Source: a virus | Length of the DNA stretch: 23,041 nt | Strand: one strand, 5' to 3' | IMG/VR virus record: IMGVR_UViG_3300046003_006102 | Location: 1 to 23,041 of that record | The notes under the pieces: model-generated | The model's input: the letters and a program-made list of their open reading frames with translations, nothing else | Told to the model about the DNA's origin: nothing | The model's database searches: none | Translations under genes and position numbers: made by a program | Shown: positions 1 through 21,808 of the stretch, in pieces | How the letters are laid out: every line of letters starts with the position of its first letter | Numbering within the stretch: the stretch's first letter is position 1

Positions 1-974
1 ATGCTGTCCTTCTGCGCCTGCATGAGTTCGAGGATGCCCTGCGTCTCCTCTTGGTATTTGGTGAGGCCGTCCACTTCTCCCATATAGCTGATGGCTCGCA
101 TCAAATCGGAAGCCATAAAACCGATGGCATCGCCCGCATTCACAAACCAATCGGCGACGCCGCTGGCGCTGTCGCCGAGGAATTGCCCGGCTTGGCGGAG
201 CTTGTCATTGTTTTGATCTAGCAACCCACCGAGGCGGGACAAGCCTTCCGCGCCTTTGCCAACGAGGCCTTCAAGGAGCGCATTGGCAGCACCGCGAATG
301 CTGGTGCTGAAGTCCTGCATCTTTTCATCCAGCCCGGCCTGCGCACGTTCGAGTTTGCCAAAGCCTTCGACGAGCGTGGCGACGAAGGTTTCCGCGTCGA
401 TGTTCATGCGCTGCAAAGTTTCCGTGTCGGCGGTGCCGAACATGTCTTGCATCACGGCGCGGACTTGGGGGACGCGCTCGGCGATTTGGTTGATTTCCTC
501 GGCGCTGACTTTGCCTTTGCTAATGATTTGTGTGAGCGCGAGCACGACGCCGTCGAGATCAGCCGAGGTGCCACCGGCGAGGCTGAGGGCATTGCCCATC
601 TCGGTGATGGCTTTTTTGGATAGCTCCGCGCTGAGTCCGACGCTGCGCAGTCGGATGTCGCCTTGCACCGCCTGCTCAAAGTCGAGGCCGGGGAGTTTGC
701 TGGCCTCTCGCAGCTCGTCCATGCGGAGCTTGGCACCGGCCGCACTGCCTTCGAGCGAGGTCATGCCGCGATTCATGCGGTCGAACGTGGCGACGACTTG
801 CACGCCTTCACGGGCCAGCAGCCCGAGGCCCAGTGTGCCAATGGCGGCTTGTGCCCCGCGAAAGCTGTTTTCCGTGCTGGAGGCAAAGCGTTTGAGCTTT
901 CCTTCTTGCTGGCTGAGTCCGCGATTGAGCGCGGTGCCGTCGTAGCCGAATTTGACTGTTGCGTCGTTGCTCAT
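1..974 (-). CDS. Tail tape measure protein, N-terminal part (runs off the left edge)
   Basis: The minus strand is open from an ATG at 974 to the window edge, giving 324 residues without a stop. The protein starts MSNDATVKFGYDG and contains a stretch like the N-terminal tape-measure domain of many siphophages (LSLAGGTSADLDGVVLALTQ, then SKGKVSAEEINQIAERVPQ and a Met/Phe-rich MQDMFGT), at about residues 130-180. The family sets tail length by spanning the tube lumen and is usually many hundreds of residues long, so most of this gene lies outside the window. It follows the G/T chaperone genes and a small membrane protein, the usual position for a tape measure gene. No Shine-Dalgarno sequence precedes the ATG; a TTTGACA motif lies 31 nt upstream. 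Plus-strand open frames over this gene are shadows. Confidence 0.93.
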   Translation of the reverse strand, partial: MSNDATVKFGYDGTALNRGLSQQEGKLKRFASSTENSFRGAQAAIGTLGLGLLAREGVQVVATFDRMNRGMTSLEGSAAGAKLRMDELREASKLPGLDFEQAVQGDIRLRSVGLSAELSKKAITEMGNALSLAGGTSADLDGVVLALTQIISKGKVSAEEINQIAERVPQVRAVMQDMFGTADTETLQRMNIDAETFVATLVEGFGKLERAQAGLDEKMQDFSTSIRGAANALLEGLVGKGAEGLSRLGGLLDQNNDKLRQAGQFLGDSASGVADWFVNAGDAIGFMASDLMRAISYMGEVDGLTKYQEETQGILELMQAQKDS

Positions 975-1056: not shown

Positions 1057-1227
1057 TCAGCGGCGGTTGAGTTCTTCGAGGATTTTTTGGCCGAGCTTGC
1101 GGAGCTTGATGAGCTCTTGGGCGCAAACGTAAATGTAATACGGCGCGAGGATGAGCAGCAAGCTGAAGAACAGCGCGAGGATGAGGAGGATGAGGCCGAA
1201 GGGGCCGGAGAAAGCGGAGGGGGGCAT
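1057..1227 (-). CDS. Small single-span membrane protein, 56 aa
   Basis: A 56-residue frame starts at an ATG at 1227 directly after a TC-rich repeat leader and ends with TGA at 1057. Residues 10-34 are strongly hydrophobic (GLILLILALFFSLLLILAPY and following), predicting one transmembrane helix. The C-terminal 20 residues are charged and amphipathic (LIKLRKLGQKILEELNRR). It sits between the tail assembly chaperone pair and the tape measure gene. I do not recognise a family; a short membrane or tape-measure-associated protein, or a lysis-related peptide, are possibilities without direct support. A longer reading of the same frame starting at 1383 would translate the tandem repeat and overlap the chaperone extension, so I prefer the start at 1227. 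Confidence 0.65.
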   Translation of the reverse strand: MPPSAFSGPFGLILLILALFFSLLLILAPYYIYVCAQELIKLRKLGQKILEELNRR

Positions 1228-1280: not shown

Positions 1281-1897
1281 TCAAAGAGACCACTCGCAGA
1301 GGGTGCGGGCATTGGTGGCGGCTTTGAGCTGGTAATACAAGGCGCGATGCAGGGGCATGGCGTAAATGGTTGCTTCCTGCCACCCGGTGAGGTGTGCGAT
1401 GTCGGCGACAAGGTCACACGTCTCGGGTGGCAAGGCTAGTTTCCCGGTCCTTCCACGGTTCCTCCTGTGGCGGTGTGGAATCGGGCGCGGGCGATGCATT
1501 CATTCATTTCACGAGCGGTGGTGACCGCTTCATTGAGTTCGTGAAGGCCGATGTTTTTTTCGACCCACGCATCGAAGGCGGCGAGCTGGATGTGCGGCGC
1601 GGTGATGCGGAGAGCGCGAATGCTTTCGGTCGTGAGATGGGCGCAGTAAATGACGCGGGCGGCCTCCGGCGCAAAGTCGGCGAGGGTGTCATAGGAACCG
1701 AGCGCGGGCGCGTTGCCATGCACGCGCAACTCGCGGTAATACAGCTCACTGGCGAGCGTGAGTGAGATTTCTTTGTCGTGCCAAGAAAAGACGCGATGGA
1801 AATCTTTTTCGCGTTGCTCGGGGTCGATGAGCGGCGCGGTGTCGATGAGGTTGGCGCTGGGAGCGACGGGAGTTGGGGGGTCGGAGGGGAGGAGCAT
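1281..1897 (-). CDS. G-T tail assembly chaperone fusion made by -1 frameshift
   Basis: This is the predicted long product of the chaperone gene: 153 residues from the ATG at 1897, then a -1 slip on GGGAAAC (1445-1439) and 52 more residues beginning LALPPETCDLVADIAHL and ending TLCEWSL at the stop at 1281, 205 aa in total. The extension contains a GWQEATIYAMPLHRALYY segment, similar in style to T-type domains of siphophage chaperones. In lambda the equivalent G and GT proteins coat the tape measure protein during tail assembly and are absent from the virion. The extension has no convincing start of its own. The slip site, its phase and the downstream stem support the fusion; no expression data are available. 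Confidence 0.8.
1378..1445 (-). promoter_or_regulatory. Programmed -1 frameshift signal: slippery GGGAAAC plus stem-loop
   Basis: The coding strand reads CCG GGA AAC TAG at the end of the G-like gene. G GGA AAC is an X XXY YYZ heptamer in the correct phase (1445-1439), one base different from the lambda site GGGAAAG. Six nt later a perfect 9-bp stem can form between TGCCACCCG (1432-1424) and CGGGTGGCA (1386-1378). Within its 37-nt loop GTGTG (1419-1415) can pair with CACAC (1396-1392). After the slip the reading continues as CTA GCC TTG. Confidence 0.85.
1436..1897 (-). CDS. Tail assembly chaperone, G-like product, 153 aa
   Basis: This is the zero-frame product, from the ATG at 1897 to the TAG at 1438-1436. 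It is a small, largely helical protein (for example DPEQREKDFHRVFSWHDK and FDAWVEKNIGLHELNEAV). I recognise it by position and mechanism rather than by sequence: it lies two genes before the tape measure and carries a slippery site at its last codons. The leader is TTCATCCTTTCCCCC directly before the ATG, nearly identical to the leader of the gene at 4751-5233, with no Shine-Dalgarno sequence. It would act in the host cytoplasm, keeping the tape measure protein soluble while the tail tube polymerises. Confidence 0.75.
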   Translation of the reverse strand: MLLPSDPPTPVAPSANLIDTAPLIDPEQREKDFHRVFSWHDKEISLTLASELYYRELRVHGNAPALGSYDTLADFAPEAARVIYCAHLTTESIRALRITAPHIQLAAFDAWVEKNIGLHELNEAVTTAREMNECIARARFHTATGGTVEGPGN

Positions 1898-4176: not shown

Positions 4177-4183
4177 TTTGAAA

Positions 4184-4211
4184 GGATGAAGGATGAAGGA
4201 GGAAGGATGAA
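4184..4211 (-). repeat. GGATGAA heptamers upstream of the 261-aa gene
   Basis: Exact GGATGAA units at 4184-4190, 4191-4197 and 4205-4211 are interrupted by one GGAGGAA unit. They form the pyrimidine-rich leader of the gene ending at 3391. Confidence 0.9.
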
Positions 4212-5233: not shown

Positions 5234-5242
5234 GGGGGGAAA

Positions 5243-5368
5243 GGATGAAGGATGAAGGATGAAGGATGAAGGATGAAGGATGAAGGATGAAGGATGAAGG
5301 ATGAAGGATGAAGGATGAAGGATGAAGGATGAAGGATGAAGGATGAAGGATGAAGGATGAAGGATGAA
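5243..5368 (-). repeat. Tandem array of 18 perfect GGATGAA heptamers
   Basis: The array is 126 bp with no mismatch, between the terminator at 5374-5409 and the ATG at 5233. On the coding strand it is (TTCATCC)18, a long pyrimidine-rich leader. Perfect identity suggests recent slippage growth. Translated frames through it give a repeating FILHPSS peptide, which I regard as an artefact. Confidence 0.97.
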
Positions 5369-5373
5369 GGCAG

Positions 5374-5868: not shown

Positions 5869-5878
5869 GAGAAGAGAA

Positions 5879-5906
5879 GGATGAAGGTGGAAGGATGAAG
5901 GATGAA
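5879..5906 (-). repeat. GGATGAA heptamers upstream of the 143-aa gene
   Basis: Exact units at 5879-5885, 5893-5899 and 5900-5906 are interrupted by GGTGGAA. A TTTGACA motif (5910-5916) lies just upstream on the coding strand. Confidence 0.9.
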
Positions 5907-5930
5907 GGGTGTCAAACTGAGACCTTGCGG

Positions 5931-7173: not shown

Positions 7174-8346
7174 TTAGCCGAGGAGCGTGGCGACAAACTC
7201 AGGCTTCCAGACCTTGACGCCGTAGAATGCCATGAGCTTGATCTCGCTCATGCCGTAGCCTTTGTAGAGGCGGGCGGAGAAAGAGAGACCGGTGTCAGCG
7301 TCCACCAGCACCGCGATCTCTTCGCCGACATCGCCGCCGGGAGGTTGTGCAGGCGGGCGCATCGCGAGCTCGATGGCGGTCTTGTGGAAGGCGACGTTGG
7401 CGGTGTAGCTGTTGCCGACGGTGACGGCCTTGTCGTTGACGATGGCACCACGCAGGCCGGGATGATTGATCACCAAGCTGCCAGAGGTCGCGGTGAGTCC
7501 GGTCTTGACGACGTAGTTGCCTGCGGTCGGCTCGTCGGCCACGGTGATGATGTCGCCAGCTTTGATGCCGGTGCTGTTCACGGTGCCGCCGTCAACGGTG
7601 AGAGTCGTGCTGCCGACGGCGATGTTGCCGTTGTTGATGAGGTAGCCTGTGCCTGCGCCCTTCGTGTGAGCCTGCACACCCGCGCTGGCGCGGATGGACA
7701 TGTTGAAGAGGTTCAGCAATTCACCACGGCGCAGCGTTGCGTCTGTGCCAGCATCGCCCACGTTGGTGAGGGTCGAACGCTTGCGCAGATTGGCTCCAGC
7801 GGCGGTGTTGAGGATGAGCGAGAGCATGCCGTCAGACATGGGGGTGCCGTTGTCTTCGAGGATGCGGTAGAGATCCGCGAGGATCTCGAAGTTGGAGCCG
7901 AATGGCGTGGTGCCAGCGGTGCCGACGGCGCGGCTTGCGCCTTGATAGGCAGCGAGTCCGATTGCGGCTTCGATGCTGTTGCGCATTTTGCGGATGGCCT
8001 GCTTATAGAGCTGCTGGAGAGCAAGCTCTGCGCCGACGGTTTTGGAGAGCTGAGCGAATTGCTCGCCTTTGAGCGGGATGGATGCTCCCGCGTAGGAGGA
8101 GAGAGTCAGCGTCTCGGTGCTGGTGGTGATGTCGGCTGCGTCAGGCACCGTCATGGCTGGGGTGTAGCTGGTCTCGAGCGTGGGCTCGGTGGTGCGCAGC
8201 GAGGTGACGGTGCCGCCAGCGGAGATGCCTTCGGAACCGCCGTTGACGATCACGCCTTGCGAAAAGCCGGATGGTTCCATCGCGACTTGATCGCGAGCGG
8301 CATAGAGGATTTCGGTGAGTCCAGTGAGTGAGATGTCGTTAGCCAT
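7174..8346 (-). CDS. Major coat protein, P22-gp5-like HK97 fold, 390 aa
   Basis: The protein starts MANDISLTGLTEILYAARDQ. Features typical of P22-type coat proteins are an early segment asking for substitution of test surfaces (SLRTTEPTLETSYTPAM), a helical spine (QLSKTVGAELALQQLYKQAI), a Thr/Gly-rich beta insertion at about residues 239-312 (TTLTVDGGT, KAGDIITVADEP) and a C-terminal DTGLSFSARLYKGYGMSEIK followed by YGVKVWKPEF. The P22 counterpart ends with a very similar pattern. About 415 copies form the procapsid shell in that family. It follows the protease/scaffold gene and is followed by the strongest terminator in the window, as expected for the most abundant late product. A related ATTGACA motif lies 42 nt before the ATG; no Shine-Dalgarno sequence is visible. 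Confidence 0.85.
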   Translation of the reverse strand: MANDISLTGLTEILYAARDQVAMEPSGFSQGVIVNGGSEGISAGGTVTSLRTTEPTLETSYTPAMTVPDAADITTSTETLTLSSYAGASIPLKGEQFAQLSKTVGAELALQQLYKQAIRKMRNSIEAAIGLAAYQGASRAVGTAGTTPFGSNFEILADLYRILEDNGTPMSDGMLSLILNTAAGANLRKRSTLTNVGDAGTDATLRRGELLNLFNMSIRASAGVQAHTKGAGTGYLINNGNIAVGSTTLTVDGGTVNSTGIKAGDIITVADEPTAGNYVVKTGLTATSGSLVINHPGLRGAIVNDKAVTVGNSYTANVAFHKTAIELAMRPPAQPPGGDVGEEIAVLVDADTGLSFSARLYKGYGMSEIKLMAFYGVKVWKPEFVATLLG

Positions 8347-12003: not shown

Positions 12004-14055
12004 TCAAAGCATCCCACCAGCGCGTAGCAGCTGGTAGTCGATGCAGGTGTATTTAGAGCAGTCGCCGAAGTGGTCGTGGGGGACGCGTTGCCACTCGCCA
12101 TCGGCGTCGCGTTTTTGGCCTGTGTGGCCGAGTTTGACTTCGGGATCGGCGTCGGTGGGCAAGTGGAAGGCTCCGTCGATGCGCTTCATCATCCGATTCG
12201 CGTAGAGCATGTTTTTGATCTCGCGGTCGTTGAAGACGAGCAACGACATCTGCGGACGAGTGGCGACGCGGGTCTCGTGGAGTTGACCATGCTTGGCATC
12301 GGAACCTTTGACAGGAATGAAAAAGCCTTTCGAAGCGGCGCACACGTCGAGCTGATCGTCCTGCTGCCAGCCTGTGTCGAGGTAACCTCGGACGGGGAAG
12401 ATTTTTTCGCCGGTGCCCTCGACGATGATGTGACGGGCGCGGAGGAAGTCGGTGGTGAGGAGGTCTTTCGATGAGACGACGGTGCCCCAGTCGCAGATCC
12501 AGACGCCGCCGTCGTGGGCGAGGGCGGCGAGTTCCCAGTGCGTGGTGGCTTCACCGGGATCGGCATTGAGGAGCAGGCGGAGGGGCTTGAATGGCAAGGT
12601 GCCGCGTCGATACAATGGGCGTCCGTTTTTGCCGTCGGCAATGGCTTTGACCACGTCATCCATCCTGAGGTTGACGTTGAACTCGGTCCACGGGCGAGCC
12701 AGGCGGCTGTTGTGATAGTCCTGCAAGCCGAACATGTCCTTGAGTGAATCGAGGAAGTCCCAGGCCATGGTGCCGAAGCTCTTGGTGGGTGAGTAAAACG
12801 AGGGCAGGATAAAGGTGCGGCGGTTTTTGGCGGCGAGTAAGTTGTGGCGTTTTTCAAGACAGCCTTCGACCATGGCTTGCTTGTGCAGCTCGGTGATCTC
12901 GCAGCCGTTGTGCGGGCAGAGGTAGCGGACGGATTCACGCACGCGGGTCTCGTCCCACTGGCCGGAGGCTTCACGGGCGGACTTGTCCCAGGTGAGCGAT
13001 TGATAGTCGCTGGGAAGCGTGAGGCCAAGGTGCGTGTTGTAGTCTTCGACATCCTCGGGGCGGCCAATGAAATCGAGATAAAACCAGCCGTGGCAGTGCG
13101 GGCACTCGACATAAAAATGCGTCTGGTCACCGGCGAGGATGTAGCGCCAGAAGGGGTGCGTGGGGCTGTTTGGCGTGCTGCTGTAATAGTGGAACTCCAG
13201 CGCGCCAAAGCCGTCGGTGCGCTTCGCGATGAGGTGGAAGGGGTGGGCCTCGGGGGCTTGCTCGCTCTCGCTCTGGATGAGCTTCGAGGCTTCGTCGCAA
13301 AGGGTGATGCCGTAGGAACCGCCGGAGAGGGCACCGGGGGAATTGCCGCCGACCAGGTTGACCATGCCGCCGGAGAGGTCCATCGACATCGAGCGATAGC
13401 GGTCGGAGTTGGCGGGCTTGCAGGCGGCGAGGATGGGATTTTCGTCGATGAGCACCTGCATGCGCTTTTCGCTGAGTTCGGTCTTGGTCCAATCGCGTGA
13501 GCTGCCGATCATGAGGATGGGCATGGGTGCGTTTACCAAGCGATACGCGGCCCCGAGCGTGAGCATGGTCGTTTTTGCGATCTGCACACCGGCGGAGACG
13601 CCGCACTCGTTGATGCCGACCTCGGGGTTGAAACATTCGAGAATCGGCCGCTGAAACGGACGCGAGGCGGTGCGAAAGGGACCGGCGGAGTTCGGGGCCA
13701 TCTTGCGCGGGAGGATGATGTTTTCCTCCAGCCAGGGCACGACGGCCTTACGCCGCTGGGTGCGGAACATGCCGAGGACTTCGCTTTGCACTGCGGCGGC
13801 GCGGCGTTGCTGCGGGGTGTAGGGCACACGCGAGGCCGTGTAGATGATCTGCGGGGCGGGTGCCGTGGGCGCGGCCTCGGGCGTGACAGCGACGGCGCGA
13901 GGAGGCAGCAGGGCGGCGATCTGCGCGTCGGCATAGAGTTCGTCGATCTCGGCCTTGCTGGCGCTTCCGCGACCGTATTTGTCGAGCAAGGCGGCGAGAC
14001 GCCGACGATTGAGCGCACTGGCGGCGGCGGTGAGGTCTGCGGGCGGGGCGGTCAT
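12004..14055 (-). CDS. Large terminase subunit, GpA family, 683 aa
   Basis: This is the packaging ATPase and nuclease. The ATPase core shows FQRPILECFNPEVGINECGV, a Walker A-like GVQIAKTTM (156-164), a Walker B region LCDEASK (252-258) and a motif III-type YSSTPNSPTH (291-300). Two Cys pairs, CPHC (318-321) and CPHNGC (380-385), form a likely zinc site as in other GpA proteins. The nuclease half begins near LLLNADPGEATTHWELAAL (495 onward), with DWG and YLDTGWQQDDQLD acidic positions typical of an RNase H-like fold. The ATG at 14055 overlaps the methyltransferase TGA as ATGA. The Walker A segment lacks the usual Gly before Lys, a known kind of deviation in this family. About 80 bp separate it from the next gene. 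Confidence 0.95.
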   Translation of the reverse strand: MTAPPADLTAAASALNRRRLAALLDKYGRGSASKAEIDELYADAQIAALLPPRAVAVTPEAAPTAPAPQIIYTASRVPYTPQQRRAAAVQSEVLGMFRTQRRKAVVPWLEENIILPRKMAPNSAGPFRTASRPFQRPILECFNPEVGINECGVSAGVQIAKTTMLTLGAAYRLVNAPMPILMIGSSRDWTKTELSEKRMQVLIDENPILAACKPANSDRYRSMSMDLSGGMVNLVGGNSPGALSGGSYGITLCDEASKLIQSESEQAPEAHPFHLIAKRTDGFGALEFHYYSSTPNSPTHPFWRYILAGDQTHFYVECPHCHGWFYLDFIGRPEDVEDYNTHLGLTLPSDYQSLTWDKSAREASGQWDETRVRESVRYLCPHNGCEITELHKQAMVEGCLEKRHNLLAAKNRRTFILPSFYSPTKSFGTMAWDFLDSLKDMFGLQDYHNSRLARPWTEFNVNLRMDDVVKAIADGKNGRPLYRRGTLPFKPLRLLLNADPGEATTHWELAALAHDGGVWICDWGTVVSSKDLLTTDFLRARHIIVEGTGEKIFPVRGYLDTGWQQDDQLDVCAASKGFFIPVKGSDAKHGQLHETRVATRPQMSLLVFNDREIKNMLYANRMMKRIDGAFHLPTDADPEVKLGHTGQKRDADGEWQRVPHDHFGDCSKYTCIDYQLLRAGGML

Positions 14056-15371
14056 GCGACGCGCTTGATTTCGAGATCAGGGAAGGCGCGGTGCATGCGG
14101 TCGAGGATGACGGCGCAGTAGTCGGGGCTGATCTCCATGCCGTAGCAGATGCGGTGGAGGTTTTGGGCGGCGAGCATGGTGGTGCCGGATCCGAGGAAAG
14201 GATCGTAGCATGCGCCCTCCCATGATTGAAGAAAGAAGGAGGGAAACTGAGGTGGAAAAATCGCAGGGTGCTCAATACCGTGACCGCCTGGCATTCTGTT
14301 TACTCGCACAACAGAATCACCCAACTTATTCGGCTGTGCAGATGCTTCAGGTGAAGAAAAATCGCGGCACTTCCCATCAGCACCACGCATTGTGCTGTTG
14401 CCTTTCCCTCTTGCTTTGATGTTTTCTTCCTTTTTTGGGAGGAATTTAAGCGCTTTCGTCGGCTTCCTTGTGAAGTGGAAAACAAATTCATGCGAAGGTG
14501 CAAGCCTTCCATTCCAGTCTCCAGGTAAACCAAAACCTTGATCCCAAACATACCAACCAAAGCGCAGCCAGCCTTGCGCCCGCATCCATTGAATCCATTC
14601 ATCAAAGTATGGCACAACCTCGCATTCGCGGTGGATGAGCCCTAAATTGACAAATATTTGAACGTCATCAGCGAGGACTGGCGCAGCGAACACTCCACGC
14701 ATCAAACCTTGCCAGTCTTTCACCACGCCAGATGTATCACGATATTCACGCTGCTGGTCGTAGGGCGGAGACGTGAATAGAATGCGCGGTTGATTTTGAT
14801 CGAGCAACAAAGATACACTTTCAGCACTGCAAGAGTTGCCACACATGAGGCGGTGCGGGCCGATCTGCCAGACCTGGCCGGTTTCCACCTGCCAGATTTT
14901 ATTCAGCTCGGCGGCGCGGTCGGTGTCGGGCTCGGCGTCGGCATCGCCTGCGGCTGGTGGCGGTGCGGGTGGCAGTGCGGACAGTAGCGCGAGAACGGGA
15001 TCGACCGAGGCATCGCGAAGGCTGGCAAGCAGGGCATCGAGCTTGTCTTCGTCGTTTTTGCCGGAGTGGGCATTGGCTGCCAGCATGCGGGCGAGGTGCG
15101 TCTCCTCATCGTAATCGACGACGACGACATCGGCATGGGTGAAGCCGAGTGCGGTCATGCGCCAGGCGCGAACGTGACCGGAGACCCACATGCGGTTTCG
15201 TTTGTTCCAGATGAGCGGATCAAAGTAGTCGTGCTCCAGGCTGGCATCCAGGGTGCGGACTTCCTCGCTGTCGGCGTCTGGAATGACGCGGGGATTTTTC
15301 GGGTGCGGATGGTTGATCTCCGCGAGAGGGGCGGATTTCCAGAGTTCGAGGTTGGCGTGTTTTTCGGTCAT
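14052..15371 (-). CDS. ParB-domain DNA methyltransferase (beta-type motif order), 439 aa
   Basis: Residues 1-100 form a ParB/Srx-like domain with the box-II motif GHVRAWRM (65-72). After an Ala/Pro linker (about 131-150) comes an S-adenosylmethionine-dependent methyltransferase with catalytic motif IV SPPY (201-204) before the cofactor motif I DPFLGSGTT (390-398), the order of beta-class N6-adenine or N4-cytosine enzymes; SPPY favours N4-cytosine without proof. Such phage enzymes usually modify phage DNA against restriction. I chose the ATG at 15371, 4 nt after the upstream stop; an upstream reading from 15458 would overlap the small terminase candidate. The gene lies between the two terminase genes. 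Residues ~181-386 are encoded by clearly AT-richer DNA than both ends, suggesting allelic exchange of the catalytic/target-recognition part. Confidence 0.92.
   Translation of the reverse strand: MTEKHANLELWKSAPLAEINHPHPKNPRVIPDADSEEVRTLDASLEHDYFDPLIWNKRNRMWVSGHVRAWRMTALGFTHADVVVVDYDEETHLARMLAANAHSGKNDEDKLDALLASLRDASVDPVLALLSALPPAPPPAAGDADAEPDTDRAAELNKIWQVETGQVWQIGPHRLMCGNSCSAESVSLLLDQNQPRILFTSPPYDQQREYRDTSGVVKDWQGLMRGVFAAPVLADDVQIFVNLGLIHRECEVVPYFDEWIQWMRAQGWLRFGWYVWDQGFGLPGDWNGRLAPSHEFVFHFTRKPTKALKFLPKKEENIKARGKGNSTMRGADGKCRDFSSPEASAQPNKLGDSVVRVNRMPGGHGIEHPAIFPPQFPSFFLQSWEGACYDPFLGSGTTMLAAQNLHRICYGMEISPDYCAVILDRMHRAFPDLEIKRVA
14216..14830 (-). other. Low-GC mosaic segment inside the methyltransferase gene
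   Basis: One hand-counted line here (14401-14460) is 42% GC, against 72% for a line in the adjoining terminase gene (13981-14040). The borders are sharp and approximate, near residues 181 and 386. The reading frame is intact across both borders. Confidence 0.75.
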
Positions 15372-15375
15372 GGGA

Positions 15376-16032
15376 TCACAAAGCCAGCTCGGCGAGGACG
15401 TTTTCGAGCGCGGGATTGAATTCCTCCTCGCGCCACTGGCTGATCGCTCGCATGGCATGCTGGGGGTTGTCAGGGTTCGCCTTCTGGGCGATGCGGCCTT
15501 CGAAGGAGGCGAAGAGCGAGACGAATTTCATGAGCGCGGCTTTGGCGTCCTGCCAGGCAGACATGGGCTGAAGGCGACCGCTTTCCAGCTCGGCCTGCAC
15601 TCGGCGCTGGCGGGCGAGGTGGTAGGACTTGAGGGAGTCGGCGGCGATCTTCACGAAGCCGATGGCGGCCATGGGATCACCGCGATCCAGCGCGACCTGC
15701 CGCTGCGCATTGGCAGCTACCATGCCCGCCCAGCACTGACACTCGGCATATTCCTCGGGCGTCCACTGGTCCTGTGGCTTCTCCATCGCGGGCGGGGCCA
15801 CATGCACCAGCCGATCTCCGGGTGGTGTCTGCCCACCCATCACGGCGACCAGGGCGCGTTTTTGCTCTTCGCTCGGGTCGGCGACTTCGAGCGCCTTCGC
15901 TCCTTGCGTCGCCAGAAACGCCACGTAATCGCCGTGCCGGTTCTTGGCATGGAGTTGCGCCGTGCGAAGGGCCACCCCCTTCGCAGCCATGTAGAGCTTC
16001 ACCAGCCCCGATTCTGCATGCGACCGCGCCAT
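15376..16032 (-). CDS. Small terminase subunit candidate, 218 aa
   Basis: The protein starts MARSHAESGLVKLYMAAKG. Its N-terminal region (GLVKLYMAAKGVALRTAQLH) looks like a helix-turn-helix, and the rest is mostly helical (EEYAECQCWAGMVAANAQ, SLKSYHLARQRRVQAELE), the plan of small terminase subunits that bind the packaging site. It opens the late operon, two genes before the large subunit, next to a long noncoding region that could hold the packaging site. The start is chosen at 16032, not the in-frame ATG at 16041, because it puts TTTGACA exactly 13 nt upstream as in three other late genes. No family motif is certain, so the name rests mainly on position and general architecture. Confidence 0.6.
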   Translation of the reverse strand: MARSHAESGLVKLYMAAKGVALRTAQLHAKNRHGDYVAFLATQGAKALEVADPSEEQKRALVAVMGGQTPPGDRLVHVAPPAMEKPQDQWTPEEYAECQCWAGMVAANAQRQVALDRGDPMAAIGFVKIAADSLKSYHLARQRRVQAELESGRLQPMSAWQDAKAALMKFVSLFASFEGRIAQKANPDNPQHAMRAISQWREEEFNPALENVLAELAL

Positions 16033-19655: not shown

Positions 19656-21038
19656 TCAAATCGGCCCCACCCCGATCGCCTTCGCCACCTCGCTGATCAC
19701 CTTCATCGGCTCATCGCTTGAGTCGCTCTCCGCGCACAGCAGCAGCATCAGAGCGCAGCGCATCGGGGCGCGTTGCTTCTTGTCGCCACGCATCCACTCC
19801 ATCGCCGCCTCGCGGTCAGTGATGCCACGCCAGGCCTCCAGTGCTCCGGCATCCACATCCGTCGTCAGATGCGCCAGGAAATCGCGCAGCGGCTCCCACG
19901 GCGCACTCGTCATCACCAGCGTTGGGTTCTCCAGCAGCTCGTCATAAATTGCGCCCAGGTTGGTGCGCAGCCATTGCCGCAGTTGCTCCACCTCCTCCAT
20001 GGCATCAGTCTTGATCGGCATCGTGCTCACCGGCGGCGACAGCACCTCCATCGTGGTCTCCTGCTCGTTATCGGCGTCGTCATCGCTCACCTCGGTCGGC
20101 GGCTTCACACTCAGCGCATCGCGCATCATGGACGAGTTCACCAGCCGCACATGCCCCTCCGCATGCAGCGGAGCCGCCACCACATACACCGGCACCCCGA
20201 TCTCCAGTGCCACCTGTTCCCAGGTGCGGCCTTCGCGATCCTTCGGCATCATCACATCGCCAAACTCAAACTCCGGCTGCGGTTGCCCGCTTTCACCCAT
20301 CGCAAATTCACGTCGCCCCGCCCACTCCACGAAGTGATAACCCTTCGCCACCTTGTATTTCTTGCGCAGCGCGACCTCACGCGCCAGCCACTCTTTCCGC
20401 CGCTTCTCCGGCAGCACATAATGCGCCTGGATGTAGGCCTTTGCCTGTCCATGCGCCATCGGCTCCCCGGTCTCCAGATCCTTGAGGATCATCTGCGTCG
20501 CTGCACGTCGGTCCTTCGCATCCAGCACCTCCAGCAGCAGCTCTGCCGTGTTCATGCTGAGTCTGCCATCACTCAGGGCCGCTCTCGCCGACTGCGGCAG
20601 TTGCTCGCCCAGCTCGAACCATAGCTGCGCACGCTCGGCAGACACCCCCAGACTCGGAGCCAGTTCGTCCGTTCGCATGCCCAGCTTCACACCGTTCTCC
20701 ACCGCCACGATCTTTTCTTCCGCATCCAGCGGATCATTGTGCCCGTGATCCTCCAGCAGGAAGCGATACGCCGCCGCCTCGTCTTCGTAGTGATGCACCA
20801 CCTGCGCACACTCCGTCCAGCCCAGCGTGCTCATCGCCTCAAAGCGGCGGTGCCCTTTGAGCAAATAGTCACCATCCACCCGCTCCCACACGTGTATCGC
20901 GTCTTGCAGGCCCTCACGCGCCAGCGACGACACCAGCTCCGGCATGCCACGATAATTCGAGCCACGCGGATTCCATTCCCAGAATTTCACACGCTCCAAA
21001 GAGCGCACCACCACTTCATTTTTTGTTTGTTCGTTCAT
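19656..21038 (-). CDS. ParB/Srx-domain protein, 460 aa
   Basis: Residues ~10-95 are a ParB N-terminal domain with the box-II motif GHRRFEA (62-68) and an upstream NPRGSNYRGMPELVSSLARE region. A helix-turn-helix like that of KorB/ParB follows (MRTDELAPSLGVSAERAQLW). The C-terminal half is Asp/Glu-rich in the middle (SDDDADNEQET) and helical at the end, without a family I know. No ParA ATPase gene is next to it, so plasmid-like partition is not supported; phage ParB-domain proteins may act as DNA-binding, CTPase or nuclease proteins. The ATG at 21038 is preferred; a TTG at 21056 overlapping the upstream TGA is an alternative. No Shine-Dalgarno sequence precedes the ATG. Confidence 0.82.
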   Translation of the reverse strand: MNEQTKNEVVVRSLERVKFWEWNPRGSNYRGMPELVSSLAREGLQDAIHVWERVDGDYLLKGHRRFEAMSTLGWTECAQVVHHYEDEAAAYRFLLEDHGHNDPLDAEEKIVAVENGVKLGMRTDELAPSLGVSAERAQLWFELGEQLPQSARAALSDGRLSMNTAELLLEVLDAKDRRAATQMILKDLETGEPMAHGQAKAYIQAHYVLPEKRRKEWLAREVALRKKYKVAKGYHFVEWAGRREFAMGESGQPQPEFEFGDVMMPKDREGRTWEQVALEIGVPVYVVAAPLHAEGHVRLVNSSMMRDALSVKPPTEVSDDDADNEQETTMEVLSPPVSTMPIKTDAMEEVEQLRQWLRTNLGAIYDELLENPTLVMTSAPWEPLRDFLAHLTTDVDAGALEAWRGITDREAAMEWMRGDKKQRAPMRCALMLLLCAESDSSDEPMKVISEVAKAIGVGPI

Positions 21039-21052
21039 CGTTTTTGATTGGT

Positions 21053-21808
21053 TCAAATTCCCAGCCGTCTTGCCTCCGCCGCCTCGTGTAGCTCATTGAG
21101 CACACGTCTTCTTTGCCGCTCATCGAGCCGCGCAAATGCCTGCTTCATCGGCACCCCTTCATAGGTCTCCACTGCCTCCTTACTGCCGCCCGTGCGGTTG
21201 TGGTTCCCGAGTTGGACCGACTCATACACAGCCCGCGCCTCGTCCGATTTTTCAAACCAGAATCGAAAGCCTCGCGGCAGCTTGCCCGTGCGCATCATCT
21301 CCTCACGCAGCTTGTTCATCGCGGCACACACCGCACTCCGCTTGTTCTCCGCCTTGAGTTGCCACAGCAGGCCGATGCTCTCAAAGCTCGGTAGCACCTC
21401 ACGCACCACCAAGCCGCGATTCAAGGCATAGGCCAGCAGCGTCACGCGGCGTCCTGTCTCCCACGGCGTCTGCGTCCCCAGCATCAGCAGTTCAAACACC
21501 GCCTCGGCATCCGCCGCTCTCGGCAGTGCCAGCCCACCATTGCACCGCACCGCGATCCGTTGCATCTCCCGCACCATCGCCGCAGTCATGGGTGGACAGG
21601 CCACAAAAAAGCGCAGCGCCATGATCCACACTCGATACCCCATCTCGGTGATGGGTGGCCGACCCACCACGGCATTGTTCGTCACCACCGCAAACAGCGA
21701 ATCCTTCGCCAAAGTTTCTTCGTCATCACGACGGCCTTGATGCAGCGCATCAAAGCTCAGTCCACCCTGGCCGCGCAGCGCAGCGATGTCGTGATGCTCA
21801 TTGCTCAC
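21053..21808 (-). CDS. Uncharacterised early protein, 251 aa
   Basis: A GTG at 21808 overlaps the upstream TGA as GTGA, in line with the coupling of its neighbours; a GTG at 21823 is the alternative. The protein starts MSNEHHDIAALRGQGG. It is mostly helical (MGYRVWIMALRFFVACPPM, ADAEAVFELLMLGTQ) and ends in a charged helical segment (FARLDERQRRRVLNEL). I see no enzymatic motif, signal peptide or clear membrane span. It is in the replication block just upstream of the ParB-domain gene. Confidence 0.7.
   Translation of the reverse strand: MSNEHHDIAALRGQGGLSFDALHQGRRDDEETLAKDSLFAVVTNNAVVGRPPITEMGYRVWIMALRFFVACPPMTAAMVREMQRIAVRCNGGLALPRAADAEAVFELLMLGTQTPWETGRRVTLLAYALNRGLVVREVLPSFESIGLLWQLKAENKRSAVCAAMNKLREEMMRTGKLPRGFRFWFEKSDEARAVYESVQLGNHNRTGGSKEAVETYEGVPMKQAFARLDERQRRRVLNELHEAAEARRLGI

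Follow-up and report, generated by a model that had tools for sequence, protein, structure and literature searches.

A conserved, predicted G/GT-type -1 ribosomal frameshift site with an adjacent zero-frame stop codon in the tail genes of uncultured phages

The -1 frameshift by which phage lambda makes its tail assembly chaperones G and GT, and the ratio of the two proteins, are treated in passages of a review (PMC5009743). In lambda, the heptamer GGGAAAG lies near the end of the first tail chaperone gene, a -1 frame open reading frame (ORF) is joined to the end of this gene, the zero-frame stop codon follows 5 codons after the heptamer, and the tape measure gene adjoins. According to the same passages, the tail chaperone pair g-t of the haloarchaeal virus HCTV-1, which has an archaeal host, uses the heptamer G_GGA_AAC, and a stop codon directly past the shift site occurs in a different gene, dnaX, of some bacteria. 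The same stop placement is described in passages of PMC4373837 for Rous sarcoma and barley yellow dwarf viruses, where it concerns other genes and eukaryotic ribosomes. These passages also report on an HIV-derived construct without stem-loop in bacteria, in which a stop after the slip site lowered frameshifting and extra cognate release factor abolished it. Among other phages, the GGGAAAG candidate of TP901-1 lies 8 codons from the stop, and the annotated slippery sequence of N15 lies 5 codons ahead of it; in HK97 and Bxb1 the heptamer pattern found nothing in phase, and their ends, read by eye, give about 5 and 6 codons. The PRFect paper (PMC10885494) reports mean distances of 26 nt for its own training set and of 36 nt for that of Xu et al. 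Searches of open-licence papers brought up no account in which an adjacent stop characterises the frameshift sites of phage tail chaperone genes.

The window analysed here, 23,041 bases long, is an entire virus record whose minus strand carries a structural operon (Pfam and PHROGs). This operon includes genes for the terminase (12004-14055) and the P22-type coat protein (7174-8346), as well as the portion of a tape measure gene that encodes the N terminus of its product (3..974; Pfam TMP_3, E 1.6e-19, and PHROG tape measure families); the tape measure gene is incomplete and extends past the window end. About 460 nt ahead of the tape measure gene ends a zero-frame ORF of 153 aa (1436..1897, minus strand) for a putative G-like tail assembly chaperone, hereafter G. 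Its last codons are GGA CCG GGA AAC TAG, so that the heptamer G_GGA_AAC (1439..1445, minus strand) stands in the X_XXY_YYZ phase and the stop TAG (1436..1438) abuts its 3' side. A spacer of 6 nt, TAGCCT (1433..1438), leads to a stem whose 5' arm TGCCACCCG (1424..1432, read 1432-1424) forms 9 of 9 pairs with the 3' arm CGGGTGGCA (1378..1386, read 1386-1378), and the 37-nt loop between them (1387..1423) contains a nested stem. The -1 frame is open from CTA for 52 codons (1281..1439, minus strand, stop at 1283-1281) and would encode a T-like domain, hereafter T. Each of these elements had been pointed out in a first-pass annotation of the sequence and was found as described, including the phase of the heptamer, the stop as the very next codon, the spacer with its perfect 9-bp stem and the 52 open codons. 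Slippage of two tRNAs yields GPGN-LALPPE, the junction peptide predicted there; as an alternative that we add, slippage of a single P-site tRNA would yield GPGK-LALPPE. Between T and the tape measure gene there is a small hydrophobic ORF (1057..1227, minus strand; 56 aa from the ATG at 1227) with no significant family in Pfam or PHROGs. The same family searches confirmed the downstream tape measure gene and identified no tail tube gene in the window.

This locus resembles lambda in its same-class heptamer near the end of the first chaperone gene, its joined -1 ORF and the adjoining tape measure gene. It differs from lambda in the second codon of the heptamer (AAC instead of AAG), in a hairpin with covariation, in the distance to the zero-frame stop (0 instead of 5 codons) and in its G and T sequences, which have no detectable homology to those of lambda. 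Among named phages with a related coat protein, three of the five fetched were assessed (two Rhizobium phages were left out), and the heptamer-to-stop distance is 26 codons in Acinetobacter phage qsb1, 1 codon in Escherichia phage 673R7 and 7 codons in Microcystis phage Me-ZS1. In the last of these, whose coat protein is 35.7% identical to that of the window, GGGAAAC likewise stands in phase close to the end of the annotated chaperone gene, and the -1 frame is open over a long stretch; unlike in the window, the stop lies 7 codons past the heptamer and no joined gene is annotated in the record.

Relatives were collected by searching viral contigs with the fusion protein and with alignments of the fusion, tape measure and coat proteins, and contigs present under second locus numbers were counted once. 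Fourteen contigs possess a relative of the G-T pair (L001, L002, L003, L004, L008, L009, L010, L011, L049, L050, L051, L053, L081 and L099), and their G proteins are 46-94% identical to that of the window (13 of the 14 aligned; L002 was omitted as a near copy of L001). The heptamer is identical and in phase, and the -1 ORF spans 52-53 codons, in all 15 records including the window, which are not independent and fall into about six clades by our grouping. TAG abuts the heptamer in 14 of the 15 records (the window and 13 of its 14 relatives); the exception, L003, has TCG in its place and a zero-frame stop 5 codons later. The check on related phages proposed in the first-pass annotation was therefore passed: none of these relatives has lost the in-phase heptamer or the open -1 ORF, and the stem covaries (see below). 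Two scans of cellular genome contigs, with 127 and 17 pattern matches, confirmed no relative, and none of 50,697 named phage records matched the G-T fusion at E <= 1.

The first ~107 nt of G are near-identical between the window (1897-1791) and L003 (6001-6107), and the whole proteins are only 65% identical, which suggests recombination at this gene start. In a further contig, L012, the coat protein is 100% identical to that of the window, but the 9.5 kb beyond the coat gene yielded neither a frameshift candidate nor any counterpart of the window's G, T or tape measure proteins; the tail module seems to have been exchanged.

The T region shows the signs of a protein-coding sequence. Among the 14 aligned sequences its invariant residues include L1, A2, P4, C8, D13, A15, G19 and W20. 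Over the full length of T, dN is lower than dS in ten of ten pairs, and over the portion beyond the stem in seven of ten, the other three pairs being either saturated (two) or without changes (one). Changes at codon positions 1, 2 and 3 number 864, 555 and 1231, respectively (11 sequences). By these substitution patterns, T is under purifying selection and evolves as a protein. The window's T matches weakly phrog_1756, a 'tail protein' family (E 0.0021; two of 14 members match at E <= 1), and phrog_10636, a family annotated as unknown (E 0.0018; ten of 14 members match at E <= 1). In L081 and L099 there is no ATG, GTG or TTG upstream in the -1 ORF or within T codons 1-30, i.e., the long -1 ORF does without a start codon of its own, as in lambda-type G/GT frameshifting. 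Since some relatives lack such a start codon, the T part would easily be missed by a gene finder.

The region downstream of the heptamer folds into a stable hairpin. In the window, the folding energy of the 65 nt that follow the heptamer is -33.6 kcal/mol, compared with -17.97 +/- 2.58 for 200 dinucleotide shuffles (z -6.06), none of which was as good. The corresponding z-scores are -6.11 in L003, -4.92 in L008, -2.62 in L049, -4.55 in L081 and -4.59 in L099, giving a range of -2.6 to -6.1 over the six family members tested. A stricter null model, in which the T peptide was fixed and codons were redrawn by the window's usage, equalled the window fold in 3 of 1000 synonymous recodings that encode the same peptide. 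Under this model the z-scores of nine members extend from -0.9 (L049) to -3.8 (L099) and are weak in L049 (-0.9), L051 (-1.5), L004 (-1.8) and L008 (-1.8), so that part of the hairpin stability stems from the peptide. When the 15 sites are aligned without gaps (14 distinct rows), 97.6% of the 126 cells of the 9-bp stem are paired, and sliding the partner by 1-3 columns reduces this to 34.9-51.6%. Three of the nine stem pairs changed on both sides, with compensatory changes from G-C to C-G in L049, L081 and L099, from C-G to U-A in L049 and from U-A to C-G in L099, and the outermost pair is broken in three of 14 rows. Of 500 column shuffles, none matched the covariation score or the percentage paired, nine reached three double-changed pairs and 45 matched the observed number of pair types; it should be noted that kin sequences can beat such shuffles without any structure. 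The hairpin, kept by compensatory change, begins 6 nt from the heptamer, within the 5-9 nt usual for a ribosomal stimulator as given in a portion of PMC8211752.

An upstream Shine-Dalgarno stimulator was considered as a further common part of the site. AGGAGG is present upstream of the slip site in the window and L001, and purine-rich motifs are present in L003, L004, L049 and L081. No such motif was found in L008, L009, L051 and L099 (four of the nine relatives checked), and the element was rejected as a shared part of the site.

Since the -1 ORF is protein-like and has no start codon in some relatives, this locus is best read as a -1 ribosomal frameshift site, and we put the probability of a programmed frameshift of the G/GT type here at about nine in ten. 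The lambda-style frameshift in a tail chaperone gene proposed by the first-pass annotation is supported by the heptamer and ORF in all 15 records, the covarying stem and the tape measure neighbour. Comparative evidence indicates that the site is real, conserved and new in sequence. Under the proposed mechanism, most ribosomes would read GGA AAC TAG and stop, releasing the 153-aa G-like protein, whereas a minority, delayed by the hairpin that lies 6 nt downstream, would slip back by one base on G_GGA_AAC and read on through CTA GCC to produce a G-T fusion of 205 aa; slippage in cells is what we infer from these features. By analogy with lambda, G would bind the tape measure protein, the T part would recruit the tail tube protein, and the ratio of G to G-T would matter for tail assembly. 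The adjacent stop may tune slippage through competition with release factor 1. These phages thus add a well-conserved, predicted G/GT frameshift with a covariation-supported hairpin in uncultured phages, in a G-T pair without a match in the named phage collection searched.

The adjacent stop, placed directly 3' of the heptamer in the window and 13 of 14 relatives, occupies the 'intercodon' position of the Rous sarcoma type. In the -1 frame, TAG is overlapped by CTA (Leu), a codon that accounts for 12 of 596 Leu codons (2.0%) in 24 ORFs picked from the window and for 0.9-11% of Leu codons in the 13 family loci measured, and it encodes the invariant first Leu of T in 14 of 15 records. One account is neutral: the zero frame past the slip site would be free to change and the stop simply inherited by the lineage. 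In its favour, the substitution that removed the stop in L003 leaves the T peptide unaltered (CTA to CTC), and L003 shows no other sign of damage. Against this, the rare CTA persists in 14 of 15 records despite strongly diverged synonymous sites of T, for which dS exceeds 0.8 in five of six between-clade pairs (0.50 for the window and L008).

The recurrence of the same placement in other chaperone types bears on this question as well. Two scans of related loci targeted heptamers, mainly NNNAAAN and NNNTTTN, with a short zero-frame tail (stops within 20 codons in the first scan and within 30 in the second) and a long -1 ORF. Among the candidate chaperone frameshifts of the window's phages and their coat-sharing relatives, the stop is at distance 0 in 29 of 40 (29 of 38 without L074 and L077, which came from a wider look), a proportion biased upward by the distance limit and by our judging chaperone-likeness by eye; in the remaining 11 the stop follows 4-25 codons after the heptamer. 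With G and T proteins other than those of the window, GGGAAAC is abutted by TAG in four of the five contigs of one group (L061, L083, L104 and L105; the fifth, L106, identified by a 39-residue match, has no candidate) and by TAA in two of two contigs of another (L073 and L075). GGGAAAG is abutted by TAA in eight of ten contigs (L026, L029, L040, L041, L085, L111, L112 and L115), the exceptions being L027 (5 codons) and L067 (12 codons), and AAAAAAA is abutted by TAG in one of one (L056). Longer distances were found in L089, L090 and L091 (4 codons), L036 (14), L088 (17) and L024 (18), as well as at the AAAAAAA sites with T-like -1 ORFs that the wider look detected in L074 (24) and L077 (25).

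Of 80 loci, 30 had a counted candidate in the first scan and 50 had none, most of the latter being short. The wider look, with distances up to 60 codons and more heptamers, was applied to the seven of these 50 loci with 5000 nt or more of sequence past the coat gene; it revealed no site in L012, L030, L031, L037 and L038, whose coat proteins are identical or related to that of the window and whose tail genes appear to be different. A separate search detected no G or T relative in these five contigs. As an antisense control, 808,567 bases of related loci yielded one stop-abutting heptamer with the same ORF architecture, compared with 23 in the sense orientation; one of these 23 (CCCTTTT in L081) is probably due to chance as well.

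Several pattern matches were dropped as not chaperone-like by our judgement, namely AAAAAAA in L010, L016 and L018; AAAAAAC in L039, L040, L041, L085 and L108-L110; CCCAAAA in L024; CCCTTTG in L053 and L055; GGTTTTT in L069; AAAAAAT in L074; CCCTTTT in L081; TTTTTTG in L088; GGGTTTG in L089 and L090; and GGGAAAC inside a 608-codon ORF of L088. The AAAAAAC sites at L039:3930, L040:2531, L041:12493 and L085:8051 follow an ORF of ~298 codons, with the stop 8 codons on and a -1 ORF of 159 codons, and those of L040, L041 and L085 are located ~1.6 kb before the chaperone site; they perhaps represent a second frameshift that extends a tail protein.

The chaperone types compared are not all independent. 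The G proteins of L061 and L083 are distantly related to that of the window (hhalign E 2.2e-5, probability 76%), so these two types do not count as independent; their T proteins are not related (hhalign probability 2%). This comparison covered L061/L083 only, out of a set that also holds the L073/L075, L029 and L056 groups. Hairpins at the other GGGAAAC sites have z-scores of -2.5 (L061), -2.9 (L083) and -2.8 (L075), the AAAAAAA site of L056 has -1.9, and no hairpin was detected at the GGGAAAG site of L029 (z +0.6).

The neutral account is favoured further by the absence of the adjacent stop in two of the ten GGGAAAG contigs and by the distances of 4-25 codons in other chaperone types. On the other side, the same placement is realized with TAG or TAA, with GGGAAAC, GGGAAAG or AAAAAAA, and with other G and T proteins. 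On balance, selection appears to maintain the adjacent stop and with it the exact end of G at the slip site, and we regard simple inheritance as unlikely, though well within reason. A more specific proposal, in which the stop is a working part of a switch, with release factor and slippage competing to set the G:GT ratio, and is kept by selection in several chaperone types, is put forward tentatively. In this model, UAG or UAA would occupy the A site once translocation is complete, at a time when the tRNA in the P site could still slip. If true, the ratio would respond to the termination capacity of the host, and several chaperone types in this phage group would have been selected to keep a release-factor-gated design.

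The first-pass annotation had called the abutting stop distinctive and possibly a source of unusual efficiency. It is conserved in 14 of 15 records and recurs in other chaperone types, but stops at this position are known from other -1 sites. The placement is thus a variant that these phages conserve and for which genes other than phage tail genes provide precedents; it is ordinary in principle. As to efficiency, 'unusual' need not mean high, because a stop lowered frameshifting in the HIV-derived bacterial test. These phages offer natural bacterial -1 sites with a stop at the next codon, plus a natural variant without it (L003), and such sites suit tests of the timing of slippage relative to entry of the next codon into the A site, and of competition by release factor.

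Alternatively, T might be made as a separate protein, without any frameshift, by termination at TAG and reinitiation just past it. This had to be considered since T codon 3, 2 nt past the stop position, is TTG or ATG in 12 of 15 members; in addition, the window has an ATG 20 codons upstream within the -1 ORF. Yet codon 3 is not a start codon in L049, L081 and L099, the last two of which have no start upstream or within 30 codons either. T residues 1 and 2 (L and A), which precede any such start, are invariant among the 14 aligned sequences, and reinitiation requires neither GGGAAAC, which is invariant in 15 of 15, nor the hairpin. The stretch open in both frames is short, with 13 nt in seven L008-type members and 7 nt in L075, which has another chaperone type. 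The missing starts of L081 and L099, the short two-frame overlap and the invariant heptamer strongly favour frameshifting over a separate start, and reinitiation is very unlikely.

Slippage by RNA polymerase rather than the ribosome could in principle change the frame at homopolymers. The GGG and AAA of the window's heptamer are short homopolymers for slippage during transcription, and polymerase slippage is very unlikely at this site. The covarying hairpin at 6 nt fits a ribosomal stimulator (5-9 nt in the consulted portion of PMC8211752). In the distant relative L056 the heptamer AAAAAAA, directly before TAG (L056:15437), lies inside a run of eight A, so that polymerase slippage is also possible there. 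Finally, a sequencing error or decayed gene, conceivable as the record and its relatives are metagenome assemblies, is extremely unlikely given that 15 separate records, with identities as low as 46%, agree in the relation of the two frames and that T is under purifying selection.

The identity of the two products was addressed by homology and structure. Neither G nor T showed convincing homology to lambda G or T or a Pfam match of note. The structural model of G is fair (pLDDT 77.9, pTM 0.67) and that of T is poor (pLDDT 65.6). No Foldseek match of the G model was obtained at E <= 0.001 in PDB or BFVD; the top BFVD hit, at E 0.026, is a phage protein that is uncharacterised, followed by GT of phage N15 (E 0.5), and the best VIA Z is 3.3. 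The tail chaperone role is thus a putative one, suggested by position, architecture and the weak match of T to phrog_1756 (E 0.0021).

Several further features of the window were observed around this locus. A small HTH_3 protein (2035-2250, E 7.6e-6) lies amid the tail genes beside an ORF without known function (2220-2582), and the pair resembles an inserted cassette (2035-2582). Upstream and in the same direction are a DNA methylase (N6_N4_Mtase, 14052-15458, E 4.9e-18) and a ParB_N-like protein (19656-21056, E 0.00083, below the curated cut-off). Tandem arrays of period 7 are located at 1017-1047, 1228-1275, 1904-1979, 4182-4211, 5241-5370 and 5876-5908, at the boundaries between genes of the structural operon or close to them, with the unit AAGGATG (GAGGTGA at 1228-1275) and a maximum of 18.6 perfect copies. 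No such arrays were found in L049, L081, L099, L056, L075 and L029. Several relatives possess period-7 arrays with other units, e.g., GATCCTA, AGCATCC, TAGATGC, AACCATC and TTCGTCA, and across the relatives with arrays the 7-base period is kept and the unit is not.
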